DNA of 25,450 nt from a virus: the IMG/VR virus record IMGVR_UViG_3300044981_000043, positions 1 through 25,450 of that record; one strand, 5' to 3'. This document shows, in pieces, positions 5,825-24,934 of the stretch. The first letter of the stretch is position 1, and each line of letters opens with the position of its first letter. The notes below the pieces were generated by a model. That model was given only the letters and a program-made list of their open reading frames with translations. It was not told the origin of the DNA and did not search any database. Made by a program: the position numbers and the translations under genes.

Positions 5825-6517
5825 TCATCGGTGAGCGGCGACTGCCGCAGCGGCCGCTTCGATACTATCGAATCGTCCGATGTGCTTGTACTTGCCCTGT
5901 ACGGTTATGCGTGCGCTCCATTTTGCGCCGGATTTCGATACACCCCGCACGCCTGCGGTGTTGTCAGAGCGAACAGATTTCAGACATGCCTCGCGGACTT
6001 TGGCGACATGCTCGGGTGTTAATGCCTTACCACGTTTGGCCGCAGCTTGCTTCTCGCGTGTTTCTGCGGTGGGGCTCTTACCCCGCAGCGAGCTTGCCAA
6101 TTTGGCTAAATGCTCGGGTGAACGGTTGCTCGAATAGTGAGACATCAATGCTTTTGTCTCTGACGAGCGACGGCGACCTTTATTTATTTCAGATATGCGC
6201 TGCCGAAATCCGTCGGGCATTTTAAAGCCACGTAGGCTTCCCGCAGTGAACGTCGAGTTATAGAGCTGGCGCGGCGCTCTGCTATCAAAGTAATGCTGTT
6301 CACGTACGAGCAGTTTATCGATGTCGCAAAGCTCTAGAACCGAAAACGTCAACTTTGCTACACCGTATTTGCTAGCCGCGAATTGCAAAGCTCGGCAGTG
6401 ATGCGTCCCCTTCGTGAGCTCTTTGCGGTGTTGCCACCAACGCTTGGTGATGTTGGCGCTACTCCCCACATAGGAACGCCCGGAAGGTGAAGTAATCGCA
6501 TAAATTCCGGATTTCAT
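5825..6517 (-). CDS. GIY-YIG homing endonuclease with NUMOD3 and AP2-type DNA-binding parts
   Basis: This is a 230-residue free-standing homing endonuclease. The N-terminal domain carries GIY at residues 4-6 and YVG at 16-18, with the conserved Arg26, catalytic Glu73 (VREQHYFD) and Asn87, so the nuclease looks intact. Residues about 98-165 hold repeated RKG/KGKS-type segments (ISEINKGRRRSSETK, SLRGKSPTAETREK, KRGKALTPEHVAKVR), the NUMOD3 DNA-binding pattern. The last 45 residues (TAGVRGVSKSGAKWSARI ... HIGRFDSIEAAAAAVAAHR) are an AP2-like domain. I chose ATG 6517 because it overlaps the RusA stop (ATGA) and follows GGGA; a longer frame exists upstream. The gene is AT-richer than its neighbours, consistent with transfer. 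It probably spreads by cutting genomes that lack it near rusA. Confidence 0.88.
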   Translation of the reverse strand: MKSGIYAITSPSGRSYVGSSANITKRWWQHRKELTKGTHHCRALQFAASKYGVAKLTFSVLELCDIDKLLVREQHYFDSRAPRQLYNSTFTAGSLRGFKMPDGFRQRISEINKGRRRSSETKALMSHYSSNRSPEHLAKLASSLRGKSPTAETREKQAAAKRGKALTPEHVAKVREACLKSVRSDNTAGVRGVSKSGAKWSARITVQGKYKHIGRFDSIEAAAAAVAAHR

Positions 6518-6891
6518 GGCGCTATTTCCCTGATGGTGTAGCAGGCGCATCCCGTCTTTGTAGGGGCACCCCGCGATATCGTGAGTATGTCAATTTGCGA
6601 ATCGTCTAGCCATACTCGTTGTTTTGTCAGGCCATCGTTAGCAATTTTTTCACGATTACCCAGATCCCATATGCCTTTAAGCTTTGTAGGTGGGTGAAGC
6701 ACAATCGAAACAGATAGGCGTCCGGTCAATGGTTTAACCGGGCCTGTCGGCAACGCATTCGCGAGCTTTACGTGATAAGCCTTCGCCTCTTTGCTTAGCA
6801 CGATGCGCCCCAGGACGGCACGCCATAGGCGATTGACGGACGGCGGCCAGGGAAGCGTGAGCAGCACGGTACGGCCTTGGTACGTGTTCAA
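6514..6891 (-). CDS. rusA: RusA-type Holliday junction resolvase
   Basis: This 125-residue nuclease would resolve branched DNA during recombination and before packaging. The frame is open further upstream, but that part is an Arg-rich shadow of the ssDNA-binding gene. I place the start at TTG 6891, preceded by AGGGG five bases upstream, which gives a normal RusA length. Family features are LPWPPSVN near the N-terminus, HPPTKLKGIWDLGNREK at 66-82 and WLDDSQID at 94-101. In E. coli RusA the metal ligands are Asp70, Asp72 and Asp91; here the matching positions read D76-L-G78-N79 and D96/D97, so the second Asp is Gly. The gene sits in the leftward replication operon, after the ssDNA-binding protein, and overlaps the GIY-YIG gene by four bases. 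Confidence 0.8.
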   Translation of the reverse strand: MNTYQGRTVLLTLPWPPSVNRLWRAVLGRIVLSKEAKAYHVKLANALPTGPVKPLTGRLSVSIVLHPPTKLKGIWDLGNREKIANDGLTKQRVWLDDSQIDILTISRGAPTKTGCACYTIREIAP

Positions 6892-17096: not shown

Positions 17097-18104
17097 ATGA
17101 AAGATGCACAGCTTATTGCCCAGCTCGCCACGCGCGGCATCATCCTGCCGGCAGGCGTGAAGGACGTGACCACGCCCCGCGGCGAGTACGCGATGGACGC
17201 GGCCAGCCTCACGCCTACCCTGGTGGGCACGCCGAATTCCGGCATCCCGTCGTTCCTGACCACCTTCGTCGACCCGAAGGTGATCGAGGTGCTCGTCGCC
17301 CCGATGAAGGCCGCCGAGATCGTCGGCGAGTCCAAGAAGGGCGACTGGACCACCCTGACGGCGACTTTCATTCAGGCTGAACCGCTGACCCGTGTCGCCA
17401 CCTACGGCGACTACTCGACCGACGGTACGTCGGACGCGAACGTCAACTACCCGCAGCGCCAGGCGTACTTCTTCCAGACCTGGACTCGTTGGGGCGAGCG
17501 TGAACTCGCGATGGCCGGCGCCGGCCGCGTGGACTGGGCCGGTCAGCTCAACTATTCGAGCGCGCTCGGCCTGGCCAAGTTCCTGAACTCGACCTACCTG
17601 TTCGGCGTGTCGGGCCTGCAGAACTACGGGCTGACGAACGACCCGCGCCTGGTAGCACCGGTGGCCGGCTCGGTCAACTGGGCGACCGCAACGCCCGACG
17701 CGATCTTCAACGACATCGTTCGCATGTACAAGCAGCTGCAGTCGCAGTCGCTGGGCATCATCGAGCAGGAAGACGATCTGCGCCTGGCACTGCCGCCGAC
17801 CGCCGCTGGCGATCTGAACAACGTCAACACCTACGGTCTGTCGGCCGCCAAGCTGTTGAAGGATGCGTTCCCGAAGATCTCGCTGGTCACCGTGCCGGAG
17901 TACGACACCGCGGGCGGCCGTCTCGTCCAGCTGTGGGCACCGGTCATCGAGGGCCAGGAAACGGCCACCTGCGGCTTCACGGAGAAGATGCGCGCCCATG
18001 CGATCGAGCGTTACAGCTCGTACTTCCGCCAGAAGAAAAGCGCTGGTACGTGGGGCGCGGTCATCTTTCGTCCCCTTGGCATGGCCGCCACATTGGGCGT
18101 CTGA
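17097..18104 (+). CDS. Major capsid protein (DUF2184 type)
   Basis: The product is 335 residues, with AAAGGAAC before ATG 17097, fitting high expression. Recognisable DUF2184 blocks are GIPSFLTTFVDPKVIEVLVAPMKAAEIVGE near residues 48-80, FFQTWTRWGERELAMAG at about 125-142, NYSSALGLAKFLNSTYLFGV, GIIEQEDDLRLALPPTAAGDLN and TCGFTEKMRAHAIERYSSYFRQKKSAGTWGAVIFRP near the end. It has the HK97-type size and forms the icosahedral shell. No N-terminal delta domain of HK97 length is present, consistent with a separate scaffold. A terminator-type hairpin follows 24 bases after the stop, closing the head transcript. Confidence 0.92.
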   Translation: MKDAQLIAQLATRGIILPAGVKDVTTPRGEYAMDAASLTPTLVGTPNSGIPSFLTTFVDPKVIEVLVAPMKAAEIVGESKKGDWTTLTATFIQAEPLTRVATYGDYSTDGTSDANVNYPQRQAYFFQTWTRWGERELAMAGAGRVDWAGQLNYSSALGLAKFLNSTYLFGVSGLQNYGLTNDPRLVAPVAGSVNWATATPDAIFNDIVRMYKQLQSQSLGIIEQEDDLRLALPPTAAGDLNNVNTYGLSAAKLLKDAFPKISLVTVPEYDTAGGRLVQLWAPVIEGQETATCGFTEKMRAHAIERYSSYFRQKKSAGTWGAVIFRPLGMAATLGV

Positions 18105-18127
18105 TTGGTGGGGCGCAGTGTTTGACG

Positions 18128-18153
18128 AAAGGCCTGGCTCACGCCGGGCCTTT
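18128..18153. terminator. Bidirectional terminator hairpin between capsid gene and antisense endonuclease gene
   Basis: An 11-bp stem (AAAGGCCTGGC with GCCGGGCCTTT, one G-U pair) closes a four-base TCAC loop. It lies 24 bases after the capsid stop on the plus strand. On the minus strand the loop TCA at 18139-18141 is the stop codon of the homing endonuclease, so translation ends inside the hairpin. No long U tract follows on either strand. Confidence 0.65.
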
Positions 18154-19656
18154 CTGCGTCCAGCGCCATAACTTCTTTCCGCTGTCCCATACACGCAACG
18201 CGTTGACGGCGTCCTCGATGTCCCATTCGGTGCGCGGATCCGTCGCGGGATCGAATGCCAGCTCGGTGCGGCTGATCTGCCGCAAGCGGTCCGGAATACG
18301 CTTGCGGGCCCATGCACCTTTGGGGCGAAAGCCGGTTGCGTGATGGTAGACCCGATAGTCGGGCGGGATCTCGCGCGCCAGCTCGAAGCCCATGTGCGCG
18401 TAAGTGCGGCCATCGAACCAGTCATTGGCCGAATACGACACGACCTCGCGACAGCCTAGCGTCCGCACGGCATGCGTGAACAACTTCGTTGCGCCGCCGC
18501 GCACGCGCGCCGATGACGCGAATCGCGTGAGATCCCATACGCCGGCCTCGCTGCGGTTGCGATCGTAGGCGTCTTTGCTGAATACCATCACAGCGACTAG
18601 GCCATGCTCAGGGTGCACCAGGCCAAAGCGGTGGGCGTTGATCGCGCCCGGCTGCTGTGGGTGATGCAGGTCAAGGAACCGCACGGCTTCCGTGTTCGGC
18701 ACGTCGACCACGGCGCAATCGCGGGCGTTGAGCGCGGGCCGCATGTCATGGCCCAGGGCGACGCGCAGCAAGTGCTCAAACGGCCCGCGACGTTCCGTCC
18801 AATCTTTGCAGGCGATCGCGATCAGGCGATAGCCGGCCGCGGCGCACGCCTGGTGTTTGATCTGTGCGGCGGCGCGTTCGCGCGTGCGGCGGTCGGAATG
18901 CCAGTACACACCGTTAAGCTCGATCGCCAGCTTGCGCGAAGGGACAACGATGTCCAGCTCTTTCGGCTTGATGATCGTCCGGTCGGACTGGTACGCGTCC
19001 GGGCAAAGTGTCTGCACGAAGGCGAACAGATCGCATTCGGTAGGCGATGGTGCACCGCTGACACAACGCGGGCAGCCATAACCGTGCCCATGATTGGCTG
19101 GCGTCTGGTCGAAGGGGCCGTGCTTAGGGCAAACGATAGTGACCTTCGACAATGCCTCTACATATTCAACCTGGCTGTAGTCGTAGCGGTCGCCGTGCTT
19201 GGCGCGTGCGCGTGCGACGAAGTGCGCTAGGTCTTTGCGACGACCGATCGACTTGCGCACGTTGCCGCAAAGCGGGCAGCCCCGGCCACCTGTGTGCCAG
19301 CCCGCGACTTGATCGAACGCGCCGTGGTCCGCGCAGACAATGCGAACCTTGAACGGGTCGCCGCGATAGTCCGCCTGGCTGTAGTCGTAGCGGTCACCGT
19401 GCGTCGCACGGGCCTTAACGATCCAGGCGGCCGTATCGAAACGTTGTCTGTCGCCGCGCGCGATGTAGCTGCATTCGCGGCACTGATCGCCTTCGGCATG
19501 CTTGCCCGCCGCCTGTTCGAATGGCCCGTGGTCTGGGCAGACAATCGCGATTTTCGCCTTCGTGCCGTGGATCGTCTGCGGCGGGTAGGTGTAGCGGTCG
19601 CCGTGCTTGGCGGCGAAGCGGGCGAGCCATGTCTCGGTGCTGATAGGTGCGTTCAT
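18139..19656 (-). CDS. Composite homing endonuclease: three zinc-ribbon repeats, Vsr-like nuclease, acetyltransferase-like C-terminus
   Basis: The product is 505 residues. Residues 10-200 hold three repeats of a DUF723-like unit: HGDRYDYS...Y, then VxIVCxxHGxF, then GCPxC. The putative metal ligands are Cys40/His43/Cys59/Cys62, Cys108/His111/Cys127/Cys130 and Cys176/His179/Cys195/Cys198. Residues 205-290 look like a Vsr/EDxHD-type PD-(D/E)XK nuclease: KELDIVVPSRKLAIELNGVYWHS with Asp235, Glu246 and His253, then AGYRLIAI. Residues about 295-450 (HRFGLVHPEHGLVAVMVFSK, RGGATKLFTHAVRTLGCREVVSYS, YAHMGFEL) suggest a GNAT-like fold. It probably cuts phages lacking this insertion. It is antisense to the structural operon and lies between capsid and head-completion genes. 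The last domain assignment is tentative. Confidence 0.8.
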   Translation of the reverse strand: MNAPISTETWLARFAAKHGDRYTYPPQTIHGTKAKIAIVCPDHGPFEQAAGKHAEGDQCRECSYIARGDRQRFDTAAWIVKARATHGDRYDYSQADYRGDPFKVRIVCADHGAFDQVAGWHTGGRGCPLCGNVRKSIGRRKDLAHFVARARAKHGDRYDYSQVEYVEALSKVTIVCPKHGPFDQTPANHGHGYGCPRCVSGAPSPTECDLFAFVQTLCPDAYQSDRTIIKPKELDIVVPSRKLAIELNGVYWHSDRRTRERAAAQIKHQACAAAGYRLIAIACKDWTERRGPFEHLLRVALGHDMRPALNARDCAVVDVPNTEAVRFLDLHHPQQPGAINAHRFGLVHPEHGLVAVMVFSKDAYDRNRSEAGVWDLTRFASSARVRGGATKLFTHAVRTLGCREVVSYSANDWFDGRTYAHMGFELAREIPPDYRVYHHATGFRPKGAWARKRIPDRLRQISRTELAFDPATDPRTEWDIEDAVNALRVWDSGKKLWRWTQKGPA

Positions 19657-19662
19657 GGCCGC

Positions 19663-19692
19663 AGGTTAGCACGACTGGCGCATGGGGCGCAA
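19663..19692 (-). promoter_or_regulatory. Promoter-like element abutting the composite endonuclease start codon
   Basis: On the minus strand, TTGCGC (19687-19692) and TAACCT (19663-19668) lie 18 bases apart. The -10 is followed by six bases and then ATG 19656, with no clear Shine-Dalgarno, the same leaderless geometry as at 398 and 9300. The region shares AGTCGTGCTA with the leftward early promoter at 9047. Confidence 0.4.
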
Positions 19693-19775
19693 TGGCTAAT
19701 ATCGAGCCGCATTTGATAAGCTGACCGCGTTTGAGTCGTTGCGGCGGAGTGGGCGCCGCCGCATGATCGAACAGG

Positions 19776-19804
19776 AAGGCCGCCGTAAGGCGGCCTTTCT
19801 TTTA
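19776..19804 (+). terminator. Rho-independent terminator
   Basis: A 9-bp perfect stem (AAGGCCGCC) around a GTAA loop is followed by TCTTTT on the plus strand. It would stop rightward read-through from the capsid operon across the antisense cassette. On the minus strand it directly follows the stop codon at 19802, so it may also end that gene, though the U tract is poor in that direction. Nothing else gene-like is visible between 19657 and 19775. Confidence 0.8.
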
Positions 19805-20011
19805 GACGGCCGTGATGTCCACGTACAGGCCGCCACGCTGCCAGTGACGGCGCGACTGCAACGGCGTCGGTCGGTTGTGTACCCAGCTCTGCTCGGGATT
19901 TCGGTACTTCCAATGCGAGTACGCGATGGCGGGCGTCTCGCCGAAACCGCACCAGCGGCCGTCGGCGCAGTAGTAGCCGAATGCGCCTTTCGTAATGTGC
20001 GGCTTTACCAT
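19802..20011 (-). CDS. Small hypothetical protein, 69 aa
   Basis: ATG 20011 follows GGAG by eight bases; the frame is open further upstream but that part is a shadow of the preceding gene. The sequence (MVKPHITKGAFGYYCADGRW, then CGFGETPAIAYSHWKY) is rich in aromatic residues, with two cysteines, and looks like a small folded accessory protein. I do not recognise a family. It overlaps the upstream zinc-binding gene by seven bases, which indicates coupling, and is followed at once by a terminator hairpin. Confidence 0.65.
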   Translation of the reverse strand: MVKPHITKGAFGYYCADGRWCGFGETPAIAYSHWKYRNPEQSWVHNRPTPLQSRRHWQRGGLYVDITAV

Positions 20012-20292
20012 CGTTCCCGCTCCTCTAACATGCTCGGCGTCAACGCCGGATTGTGATCGCACCAGCGCGAGCCGCGCCGATGCGGAAAATGGTAACCCTG
20101 GCAGCCCGACCGATCGGGCCGGCAGACGGCCGCCCTGTTGTGCCGTTCGTGCGACTGCCGGTAACCGTCGACCCGCAGCAAGCCTTTGCGGCACACCTTG
20201 CAACGTGGCGGCTTGACATACGTCTCGGGCCGGAAGCGCTTATTCTGGCGTGCTTGGCAGGCTTTGCGGCGGCAGCGGCACGGCCAGGACAT
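20005..20292 (-). CDS. Small Cys/His-rich putative zinc-binding protein
   Basis: The product is 95 residues, with GGAG eight bases before ATG 20292. It is strongly basic. Cysteines occur as CRCRRKAC near the N-terminus, RCKVC in the middle, then CRPDRSGC and a final RWCDHNP preceded by GYHFPHRRGS. The second set (CxxC ... C ... C) could hold one or two zinc ions. Small basic zinc proteins of this style are frequent in phage early regions and are usually thought to bind nucleic acid, but the function is unknown. It is transcribed from the strong promoter at 20320-20347, together with the following 69-residue gene. Confidence 0.7.
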   Translation of the reverse strand: MSWPCRCRRKACQARQNKRFRPETYVKPPRCKVCRKGLLRVDGYRQSHERHNRAAVCRPDRSGCQGYHFPHRRGSRWCDHNPALTPSMLEERERW

Positions 20293-20319
20293 TGTCGTTT
20301 CTCCGGTGGTGTGCTGCCG

Positions 20320-20347
20320 ATTCTACACCGTTACATTGCCTTGTCAA
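20320..20347 (-). promoter_or_regulatory. Strong leftward promoter of the small-gene cassette
   Basis: On the minus strand, TTGACA (20342-20347) and TAGAAT (20320-20325) are separated by 16 bases. This is the best sigma-70 match in the window. It is nearly identical over 22 bases to the promoter region at 15078-15099. Confidence 0.75.
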
Positions 20348-20380
20348 CACCTTTCAGACGAAAAGATCGAAACGCTTTGC

Positions 20381-20386
20381 TAGACT
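20381..20386 (+). promoter_or_regulatory. TAGANT motif before the resumed rightward operon
   Basis: TAGACT lies 41 bases before ATG 20428 and directly after the antisense cassette. It resembles motifs at 398, 22742 and 24975. No -35 consensus is present. Confidence 0.35.
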
Positions 20387-20415
20387 CGCGTCACAGTCCG
20401 TACCAACCGCAACAA

Positions 20416-20430
20416 GGAGCTTCGCCCATG
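20416..20430 (+). repeat. 15-bp leader repeat, copy 2
   Basis: Identical to 13792-13806: GGAGCTTCGCCCATG. The flanking bases and the encoded proteins differ. Confidence 0.7.
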
Positions 20431-20814
20431 CCTGCTGTCAAGCGTTCCGCTAAGACCGTTTCCATTGCCTGCAAACTCCCGCAGGGCCTGCACATTCACC
20501 TCGACGGCCGTCGCGAGCCGATCAAGCTGCACGGCCAGAACTCGCCGTTCAATATCGCCGGTCACGGCATCACCCAGGGCGTCTCGGTCGACGACTGGGC
20601 AGCCATCCAAGCGCAGTACAAGGAATCGCCCTGGCTGAAGAACGGCTTCGTGTTCGCCAACGGCGACGGCGACGACCTGGCCGAAGAGGCTGACGACCGC
20701 AAGGACGTCCAGACCGGCTTCGAGCCGATCGACCCGCGCAAGCCGGATGCCCGCAGCGGCTCGCTGGCGGCCATCCAGCCGGACGGTGCCCAGGATCCGG
20801 GCGAGCGGGCCTAA
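20428..20814 (+). CDS. Hypothetical protein at the head-completion position
   Basis: The product is 128 residues from ATG 20428, behind AAGGAG; the frame is open upstream but without a start supported by a ribosome-binding site. The first 40 residues (AKTVSIACKLPQGLHIHLDG, then NSPFNIAGHGITQGVSVDDW) look folded and conserved; the second half is acidic and polar (GDGDDLAEEADD), probably disordered. It has no cysteine cluster or membrane span. Genes of this type commonly stand between capsid and DUF4054 adaptor genes in related myoviruses, so a structural or assembly role is likely but unproven. Confidence 0.7.
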   Translation: MPAVKRSAKTVSIACKLPQGLHIHLDGRREPIKLHGQNSPFNIAGHGITQGVSVDDWAAIQAQYKESPWLKNGFVFANGDGDDLAEEADDRKDVQTGFEPIDPRKPDARSGSLAAIQPDGAQDPGERA

Positions 20815-22782: not shown

Positions 22783-24270
22783 GTGACTATCCCTGTTAGC
22801 AAAAAAGTTACCGTCCTACCGGGCGTCGTCGCGGGTGGTGGCCAGGCGTCCAGCCTTGGCGGCCTCGTCGTCTCCCAGGACACCTCCATTCCGCCCGGTC
22901 AGCAGCTCGACTTCATCAGCGCGCTGGCCGTGTCCAACTGGTTCGGACCGAACGCGCCCGAGACGCTGATCGCGAACAACTACTTCCCGGGCATCGTCAA
23001 CGGTGGCCAGCTGCCCTACGATCTGAAGTTCTCGGCGTACCTGCTGGCAGCGGCGCCGGCCGGCGTCTACGGCGCGAGCACCGCGGCGCTGACCCTGTCG
23101 GCCTTGCAGTCGCTTACCGGCACGCTGATTGTGACCACGGCGGCGCTGCATACGTCGAGCGTCATCAATCTCTCGGCCGCGACCAGCTTCGCCAACGCCG
23201 CCACGATCATGACGGCCGCGTTCACCTCGCCCGACTTTGCCATCACCTATGACGCGGTGCGCCAGCGCTTCCTGCTGCTGACGACCTCTACCGGCCCGAC
23301 GGCGGCCTGCTCTCCCGTGACCGGTACCCTGGCCGCCTCGATCGGTCTGGCGGCCAGTGTGGGCGCGTATAACCAGGCCGTGGGCGTAGCGGCCGACACC
23401 CCAGCGTCGGCGATGAACCGCGCCATTGCCGCCTCGACCAATTGGGGTACGTTCACGACCAGCTATGCGGCCGTGATCGCCGATCGCGAAGCCTACGGCG
23501 CGTGGAACAGCGGCCAGAACTTCCAGTACATGTACGTCTCGTGGGACTTGGATGCGGCCAGCATCGTGCCGAACAATTCCGCGTCGTTCGGTGCGGTCGC
23601 CTTCGCGACGCCTTACCAGGGCGTGCTGCCGATCTACGGCGGCGCGGACTCAGCCGGCGCGATGCAGGCATGGGCTGCCTCGACGAACTTCAGCGTGGCC
23701 AACGGCCGCACGAACCTGGACAGTCGCCAGTTCCTGTCGGGCGTCGCCCCGGTGGTGAACGATGCGACCACGGCCGCCGCGCTCGATTCGAACCACTACA
23801 CCTACATCGGCGGGTACGCCAACCAGGCGAACACCTACACGATCGCCACGAATGGCGCGGTGTCCGGTCAATTCCTATGGTCCGATACCTACCTCGACCA
23901 GATCTACTTGAATCGTGAGCTGCAACGCGCACTGTTCGAGGCGCTGCTCGCCTACAACTCGATTCCGTACAACCAGGACGGCTACACCGAGCTTTACCGG
24001 GCAGCGGTCGACGTGATCGACGCGGCGGTGACGTCGGGCATCATCCGCGCCGGCGTAACGCTGTCGCAGACCCAGGCGCAGGAAATCAACACGCAAGCCG
24101 GCCGGGTGATCGACCCGATCGTATCGACCCGCGGCTGGTACCTGCTGTTCGGCGACCCGGCCAACGTCGCCCAGGCTCGTCAGAACCGCACCAGTCCGAC
24201 CGCGTCTCTCTGGTATACCGACGGCGGTTCGATCCAGCAGATCACCATCGCCTCGCGCGCGATCATTTAA
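22783..24270 (+). CDS. Tail sheath protein (DUF3383 type)
   Basis: The product is 495 residues from GTG 22783, behind AGGAGC. The contractile sheath surrounds the tail tube and drives it through the host envelope. DUF3383 features are VTVLPGVVAGGG and LGGLVVSQDTSIPPGQQLDF at the N-terminus, WFGPNAPETLIANNYFPG, a variable middle domain (about 95-200), WGTFTTSY, VAFATPYQGVLPIYGG, FSVANGRTNLDSRQF, and LDQIYLNRELQRALFEALLAYNSIPYNQDGYTELYRAAVDVIDAA near the C-terminus. The length is normal for this group. It is followed on the other strand by an HNH gene whose last eight bases overlap its end, so sheath and tube genes, normally adjacent, are separated here. Confidence 0.92.
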   Translation: MTIPVSKKVTVLPGVVAGGGQASSLGGLVVSQDTSIPPGQQLDFISALAVSNWFGPNAPETLIANNYFPGIVNGGQLPYDLKFSAYLLAAAPAGVYGASTAALTLSALQSLTGTLIVTTAALHTSSVINLSAATSFANAATIMTAAFTSPDFAITYDAVRQRFLLLTTSTGPTAACSPVTGTLAASIGLAASVGAYNQAVGVAADTPASAMNRAIAASTNWGTFTTSYAAVIADREAYGAWNSGQNFQYMYVSWDLDAASIVPNNSASFGAVAFATPYQGVLPIYGGADSAGAMQAWAASTNFSVANGRTNLDSRQFLSGVAPVVNDATTAAALDSNHYTYIGGYANQANTYTIATNGAVSGQFLWSDTYLDQIYLNRELQRALFEALLAYNSIPYNQDGYTELYRAAVDVIDAAVTSGIIRAGVTLSQTQAQEINTQAGRVIDPIVSTRGWYLLFGDPANVAQARQNRTSPTASLWYTDGGSIQQITIASRAII

Positions 24271-24934
24271 GGAGACGAGCCGAGGACAAGGACGTCATCG
24301 GCTCAAACTTATGGCCTTTGCGGCGGTTCGCAGTAGCGGTGATAACGCGGAGATTGGTTTCGACATGCAAGCCGCACACGTTCTTGCCTTGCAATGGGAT
24401 TTCATGGTCTACCTCGTGACGTTCGCCGGTTTCTTTTGTCAGGCGTTCGGCATTTTCGTAGACAGCCAAAATAGCGGCAGAATCCGCCCATCCTGGCGTC
24501 GCTCGGGCGACGTGTTGCTGCCGCCGGCGAGTCTTTACAACAAGTCGTGCCTTATGCGTAGCGCGCCACGCTTTGCCACGCTCTCGGGCCGCTTCGATGA
24601 CTTCGGGTTGTTGGCGATAGGCTTCATCAAACTGTCGAGCACGTTCGCTGAAACGCCAACCATTTTCGCGGTCAAGCCAGCGTTCGCGATTTGCTTGATA
24701 GTAGGCAAGACCGTACGCGCGGCTAGCTTCGTGATTGGTTTGGTAATGCGCCAAACGTGCCGCGCGTTTCTTAGATGCGGGCGCGTTATAGCGCTCTTGC
24801 TCTGCGAGGCGGCGGCATTCATAGCAGGATTTGTGCGGGCCCTCACGCAATTCACCTTTCTGAGTCTTCCAGCGTCGCACCGGAAAGTCCGTGCAAGGCT
24901 TGCTTTTCTTGCAGGTTTTGCAGACGTATTCCAT
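24263..24934 (-). CDS. HNH homing endonuclease inserted between sheath and tube genes
   Basis: The product is 223 residues, with GAGAG before ATG 24934. The N-terminus has CKTC (Cys5, Cys8) and CYEC (Cys37, Cys40), a zinc ribbon. The middle (about 45-150) is basic, helical and rich in Arg, Ala and Tyr, with NRERW-like repeats, probably a DNA-binding stretch. The C-terminal HNH core is HEVDHEIPLQGKNVCGLH (His173, Asp176, His177), then NLRV (Asn194) and ANRRKG (Asn203), so the active site looks complete. The gene is AT-richer than its neighbours. Its orientation is opposite to the tail genes and it overlaps the end of the sheath gene by eight bases. Confidence 0.88.
   Translation of the reverse strand: MEYVCKTCKKSKPCTDFPVRRWKTQKGELREGPHKSCYECRRLAEQERYNAPASKKRAARLAHYQTNHEASRAYGLAYYQANRERWLDRENGWRFSERARQFDEAYRQQPEVIEAARERGKAWRATHKARLVVKTRRRQQHVARATPGWADSAAILAVYENAERLTKETGERHEVDHEIPLQGKNVCGLHVETNLRVITATANRRKGHKFEPMTSLSSARLLK

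Follow-up and report, generated by a model that had tools for sequence, protein, structure and literature searches.

A free-standing Hef-like endonuclease gene beside a phage capsid gene encodes a predicted GNAT-fold tail related to Mu Mom

The window, by which we mean the whole stretch of DNA that was analyzed, is a virus record of 25,450 bases that resembles the Bcep781-type phages of Burkholderia. It includes a gene for the major capsid protein (17097–18104, + strand), whose product is about 69% identical to its counterparts in Bcep781, Bcep43, Bcep1, and BcepNY3 (about 69–70% for the major head protein of Bcep781). The capsid gene is followed immediately by an uninterrupted frame of 505 amino acids on the other strand (18139–19656, − strand, stop codon included). 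The two convergent genes are separated by a hairpin (18127–18154; seen in the sequence and by folding) that extends into the final codons of the endonuclease gene. This hairpin is possibly a shared terminator that ends both transcripts; a simple terminator scan did not flag it. Beyond the insertion region, the next conserved head-region gene (20428–20814, + strand) is similar to gp09 of Bcep781 (50% identity over 119 residues; phrog_2085). We saw no intron around the endonuclease gene. About 660 bases upstream of it, there is a promoter-like site (20347–20320, − strand) with 11 of 12 consensus bases; shuffled sequences contain 0.7 such sites on average.

Other nuclease genes of the mobile type are found nearby. 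A GIY-YIG homing endonuclease gene (5825–6550, − strand; Pfam E = 5e-9, phrog_314) is the second such class within 25 kb, and a gene similar to endonuclease VII or HNH proteins (24263–24934, − strand; phrog_1035, E = 3e-13), which is antisense among structural genes, is the third. Also, in the contig with the closely related endonuclease L001 (84% identity), a gene that looks by eye like an HNH nuclease (702–1358, − strand) lies between head genes; it is absent from that place in the window.

We assign the 505-residue protein, from its sequence, to the Hef-like homing endonucleases, a common group of free-standing phage enzymes. Residues 5–502 match phrog_559 (E = 3.7e-88), and phrog_3339 was matched as well. 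The Pfam matches (MTES_1575, Vsr, and DUF723) are all below threshold. Relatives of the protein occur in 888 of 50,697 phage records, with a coverage of at least 80% in 123 of them. The genes matched by its C-terminal part (the tail) are mostly annotated as homing endonuclease, Hef-like, or hypothetical protein, and include F-LimX of LIMEstone1 and others annotated as Hef-like. Members of phrog_559 and phrog_3339, such as gp15 of phiL7, share the repeats, the nuclease, and the tail over the whole length, and they too are free-standing between structural genes. The AlphaFold model of the whole protein, from an alignment with 60 rows, has a mean pLDDT of 90.8.

A sequence-only reading of this DNA had described a composite homing endonuclease, with three zinc-ribbon repeats, a Vsr-like nuclease, and a GNAT-like tail, and we find all of these parts in one frame. 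The three repeats (all on the − strand) are residues 1–66 (19459–19656), with C40, H43, C59, and C62; residues 67–137 (19246–19458), with C108, H111, C127, and C130; and residues 138–201 (19054–19245), with C176, H179, C195, and C198. They are seen both in the model and in an alignment of 10 relatives, where the pattern is C-x2-H...C-x2-C and all 12 ligand positions are invariant (10 of 10). We class them as zinc ribbons of the DUF723/CapR type. The earlier label of DUF723-like is weak for the window protein itself, in which repeat 3 has a match below Pfam's cutoff (E = 0.065), but the DUF723 match of the relative from phage phiR1-37 is above it. The nuclease domain (residues 203–302; 18751–19050, − strand) has D235, E246, H253, and K267, and all 60 sequences compared share these residues. 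In the model, residues 202–303 align to the endonuclease-like protein 3hrl with Z = 12.6 and an rmsd of 2.0 over 88 positions. We take EDxHD to be the lettering of the Vsr-type class to which this nuclease is assigned.

The rest of the protein (residues 303–505; 18142–18750, − strand) is predicted to be a GNAT domain. That an extra C-terminal domain follows the nuclease had been noticed before, but it had been put at 150 residues and is longer than that. When modeled alone, from the same 60 source sequences as the whole protein, the tail has a pLDDT of 93.2. Its strands and helices come in the order that is typical of GNAT proteins, and in structure searches it matches many solved GNATs. In a Foldseek search of the PDB, the Mom protein of phage Mu (8bv8, the S124A mutant) ranks first for both models (E = 8.9e-5 for the whole protein and 1.3e-6 for the tail). 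But structure does not single out Mom: with VIA-align, the C-terminal model is as close to N-terminal acetyltransferases (up to Z = 14.2, for 9qqb_XB, with an rmsd of 2.6 over 133 positions) as it is to Mom (8bv8_A; Z = 13.8, rmsd 2.8, 137 positions). In a comparison with predicted viral structures, the tail is closest to proteins that are mostly endonuclease-like, many of them without a name, and a Mom appears at rank 23.

Profile comparisons are more specific. As a statement about descent, kinship of the tail to Mom in particular, beyond GNATs in general, has good support. With hhalign, an alignment of 60 tails matches 11 Mom proteins with a probability of 97.4–97.5% (E of about 1e-11), while 60 column-shuffled controls gave at most 1.0%. 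Four subsets of 3–5 Mom sequences, matched in size to sets of generic GNATs, gave 94.1–96.7%, as compared to 2.2–17.7% for three sets of E. coli GNATs (RimI, RimL, a fragment of RimJ, MnaT, and SpeG). We therefore rejected a generic GNAT identity for the tail, and the earlier guess of a Mom-type domain looks sound. (Comparisons to single sequences do not discriminate: 7.0% or 17.7% for Mom and 2.9% for RimI.) The Pfam model for Mom (PF25680) gave no match to the tail with an E cutoff as high as 10, so we describe the tail as a relative of Mom and not as a Mom protein.

Within this subfamily, fusion of the Mom-like tail to the nuclease is obligate. We used alignments of the tail alone to scan viral contigs, taking the best 80 loci per scan, which covers this tail subfamily rather than all relatives of Mom. 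Of the 163 tail-bearing frames obtained, 156 also contain the nuclease. Of the other seven, six begin at the cut end of a locus and one is a fragment. We considered g151 of phiR1-37, which is annotated as "exonuclease ABC C subunit," as a potential case of a different nuclease partner. It has DUF723 and Vsr matches, so we found no domain swap. In Arthrobacter phage MaGuCo (L136), an annotated LAGLIDADG endonuclease is followed, two genes later, by a Mom-like gene that is free-standing.

We then compared the conserved residues of the tail, using 187 unique tails (81 representatives at 70% identity), to those of Mom. The profile alignment pairs H58, R111, S146, D149, and Y159 of Mom, none of which varies among the 11 Mom proteins, with positions 332, 378, 407, 410, and 419 of the window protein. 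Across the 187 tails, H332 is present in 185 (with 2 gaps), R378 in 186 (with 1 gap), and Y419 in all; position 407 is serine in 179 and threonine in 8. D410 is present in 181, and the other six all have alanine. The loop before helix alpha-3 (residues 384–392, RVRGGATKL; 18481–18507, − strand), which is at the site of the acyl-CoA pyrophosphate loop of GNATs and may have that role, is also kept across the family: G387 is present in 186 tails (with 1 gap), G388 in 146, and A389 in 169. The sequence-only reading had proposed to look for an acetyl-CoA binding loop, for which this one is a candidate. Neither of the two outcomes named there as counting against that reading was seen: the predicted fold is that of GNATs, and the relatives retain the loop. 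Position 390, in the same loop, is S in 124 tails, D in 40, G in 15, T in 4, and N in 3. The title of 8bv8 calls the S124 mutant of Mom inactive; S124 has no secure counterpart in the tail because the loop aligns ambiguously. Since the conserved residues of Mom are retained in most of the family, the tail is probably still active there, or still binding.

The window protein and its closest relatives are different. Residues 410–412 are A-N-D (18421–18429, − strand), instead of the D-x-R of most of the family, which aligns with D149-x-R151 of Mom. The six tails with A410 represent four proteins: those of the window, L001 (with a longer copy, L012), XapPhi5, and phiL7 (L005 and L013). All four have D412, where 173 of the 187 tails have arginine. 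Other full-length relatives, from the Xanthomonas phages MK21, phiXacJX1, Valrath, and CP1, fall outside this count and may or may not share the alanine. The clade thus differs from the rest of the family at a position that is invariant elsewhere, and because this position aligns with D149 of Mom, it is doubtful that the window copy modifies bases.

Nevertheless, the tail of the window protein is still under purifying selection. Between the window and L001, omega is 0.084 for the tail (dS = 1.27), 0.028 for the nuclease (dS = 2.13), and 0.050–0.103 for the zinc repeats; these are from a simple counting method and are imprecise where dS is above 1. Compared to the more distant phiL7, the tail is the most conserved part (58% identity, versus 43% for the nuclease and 40% for the zinc repeats). 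D412 might stand in for the lost D410, and the Mom domain of this homing endonuclease could then be active in every clade, including the window's. The co-occurrence of D412 with A410 in all four proteins, and the conservation of the tail, fit this idea. But the aspartate is otherwise invariant at 410, as D149 is among the Mom proteins, and conservation of the tail also fits a structural role. We consider this alternative to be unlikely. A caveat for the opposite view is that the Mom proteins with this fold are enzymes, so a purely structural tail requires that the loss of the aspartate matters.

Evidence for mobility comes from a relative in Klebsiella-type phages. In the Jedunavirus-type phages 1611E-K2-1 and ZCEC13, a relative's gene of 1,581 bp lies between the capsid terminator and the gene for endonuclease VII. 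In SBP, P12620-1, and RCIP0054, this gene is absent, and about 25 other bases connect the two flanks. The flanks are mostly 80–99% identical per 100-base block, but are less similar for RCIP0054 (down to 0.62 downstream and 0.73 in the capsid gene). These occupied and empty alleles favor homing. SBP and P12620-1 (L302 and L303, at about 1345–1380) have empty alleles in which the extra bases start with ACCCGT and the right flank starts with ACGGGT. This inverted repeat is flush with the borders of the insertion, and its left arm is missing from RCIP0054 (L304); it could be the target or a chance occurrence.

In the window's own phage group, XapPhi5 has the gene in the same antisense place after the capsid gene, Bcep781 and Bcep1 lack it there, and in PhiXhv-2 the place is taken by another endonuclease, which matches GIY-YIG weakly. 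The region 18105–20427 of the window, as compared to the corresponding loci (L125, L127, L128, and L004), is a cargo site of this group, located after the capsid gene. It contains a small gene in Bcep781, a methyltransferase in Bcep1, the other endonuclease in PhiXhv-2, and the Hef-like gene in the window and in XapPhi5. We found no empty allele in a near-identical relative of the window phage; the capsid protein of Bcep781 is 70% identical.

The divergence of the endonuclease gene parallels that of the adjoining capsid gene, with 84% and 83% identity, respectively, to L001 and 56% and 52% to XapPhi5. This fits long residence as well as it fits active homing. On the other hand, phiL7 (in which the 7.5 kb of L005 contain no relative of the window's capsid protein) has a copy with 47% identity in the tape-measure region, relatives are flanked by different genes in different phages, and tail-bearing genes occur in up to 10 places per phage genome. 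Together, these observations suggest both long residence and transfer between phages. The gene might instead be domesticated, as a long-resident nuclease that has lost homing and serves the phage by excluding rivals or by regulating the capsid region, which would fit the parallel divergence, the purifying selection on all domains, and the convergent arrangement next to the capsid gene; but its relatives are mobile and adjoin different genes in different phages, so we think this is quite improbable.

The architecture is common, and it has been published in parts. The zinc and Vsr part corresponds to a large unrecognized outgroup of EDxHD/Vsr homing endonucleases that was described in 2025, according to the sections available (PMC12350094). 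There, the CapR/DUF4379/DUF723 plus EDxHD/Vsr enzymes of phage group II introns likewise have 3–5 zinc domains followed by a Vsr-like nuclease. As presented in those sections, they end with the nuclease, whereas the window protein adds a GNAT tail of 200 residues. DUF723-type domains were reported in 2023 to be DNA-binding parts of phage homing enzymes (PMC10448857, in the portion available). The Hef of phage U5 enters this comparison by its description in another paper.

As for Mom, the GNAT fold is shared, and H58/H332, R111/R378, S146/S407, and Y159/Y419 are aligned and conserved. Unlike the window's tail, which is fused to a nuclease, has no Pfam Mom match, and has alanine in place of D149, Mu Mom is a separate protein. 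The combination of Mom and a nuclease, which the sequence-only reading had taken to be new, is not: fusions of Mom domains to restriction-fold nucleases were already reported in jumbo phages, with a predicted role in restriction-modification (Iyer et al. 2021, PMC7824862, in the excerpts available). The same excerpts give five momylating enzymes for phage PA5oct, which yields exactly five members of the window protein's family. Because these numbers agree (a match by count, not by accession), the Mom-REase fusions probably belong to the same family. The word "homing" has 0 occurrences in that paper. Our literature search found no paper that joins homing endonucleases with Mom, although works outside its range may do so; and we did not find in print the identity of Hef-like proteins with Mom-nuclease fusions, the strict fusion, or the clade's loss of the aspartate.

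Could these proteins be single-chain restriction-modification systems, in which adenines of the phage itself receive a mark from the Mom domain, and host or rival DNA without the mark is destroyed by the nuclease? This is what was predicted for the Mom-REase fusions (in the available part of Iyer et al.), and the count in PA5oct would fit, as would the near-universal fusion of tail and nuclease and the retention of H332, R378, Y419, and D410 in nearly all tails. But up to 10 tail-bearing places per genome, as well as presence/absence variation at one intergenic site, suit selfish mobility better than a single genome-wide marking system, and the window's clade has lost D410. Thus, we view restriction-modification as an improbable explanation.

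Overall, we favor the view that this is a free-standing, mobile, Hef-like homing endonuclease whose tail is derived from Mom, and that in the window's clade, the tail is more likely to be for recognition or structure than for modification. We give this a probability of roughly 65%. In this model, the three zinc ribbons would read a DNA target, probably near the capsid gene; the Vsr-like nuclease would cut phage genomes that lack the gene; and repair from a genome that bears the gene would copy it in. The C-terminal domain is a descendant of the Mom family, whose GNAT enzymes modify adenines, and it would work only when joined to the nuclease. For most members, DNA probably still receives an acyl-type mark from this domain, or the domain at least binds DNA and acyl-CoA. 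For the window's clade, given the alanine that aligns with D149, DNA recognition or structure seems the more likely role.

A more speculative version of this homing model, which we would not bet on, is that Hef-like enzymes are chimeras of a reader, a cutter, and a writer. The tail would mark adenines at or near the target and would shield the genomes that bear the gene from their own nuclease, and the window's clade would be a natural variant that has lost writing. A free-standing gene need not interrupt its own target, so a protective mark would spare the genome that carries it.

Either way, a domain related to Mom, Mu's acyl-type modifier of adenines in DNA, is present in a large group of phage nucleases whose annotation is loose. 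An active tail could account for how homing genes that are free-standing spare their own genome. If the tail is inactive instead, then a modification enzyme would have been reused as part of a machine for cutting DNA. The clade without the aspartate, to which the window protein belongs, is a natural comparison for both outcomes, and each of them can be tested directly.
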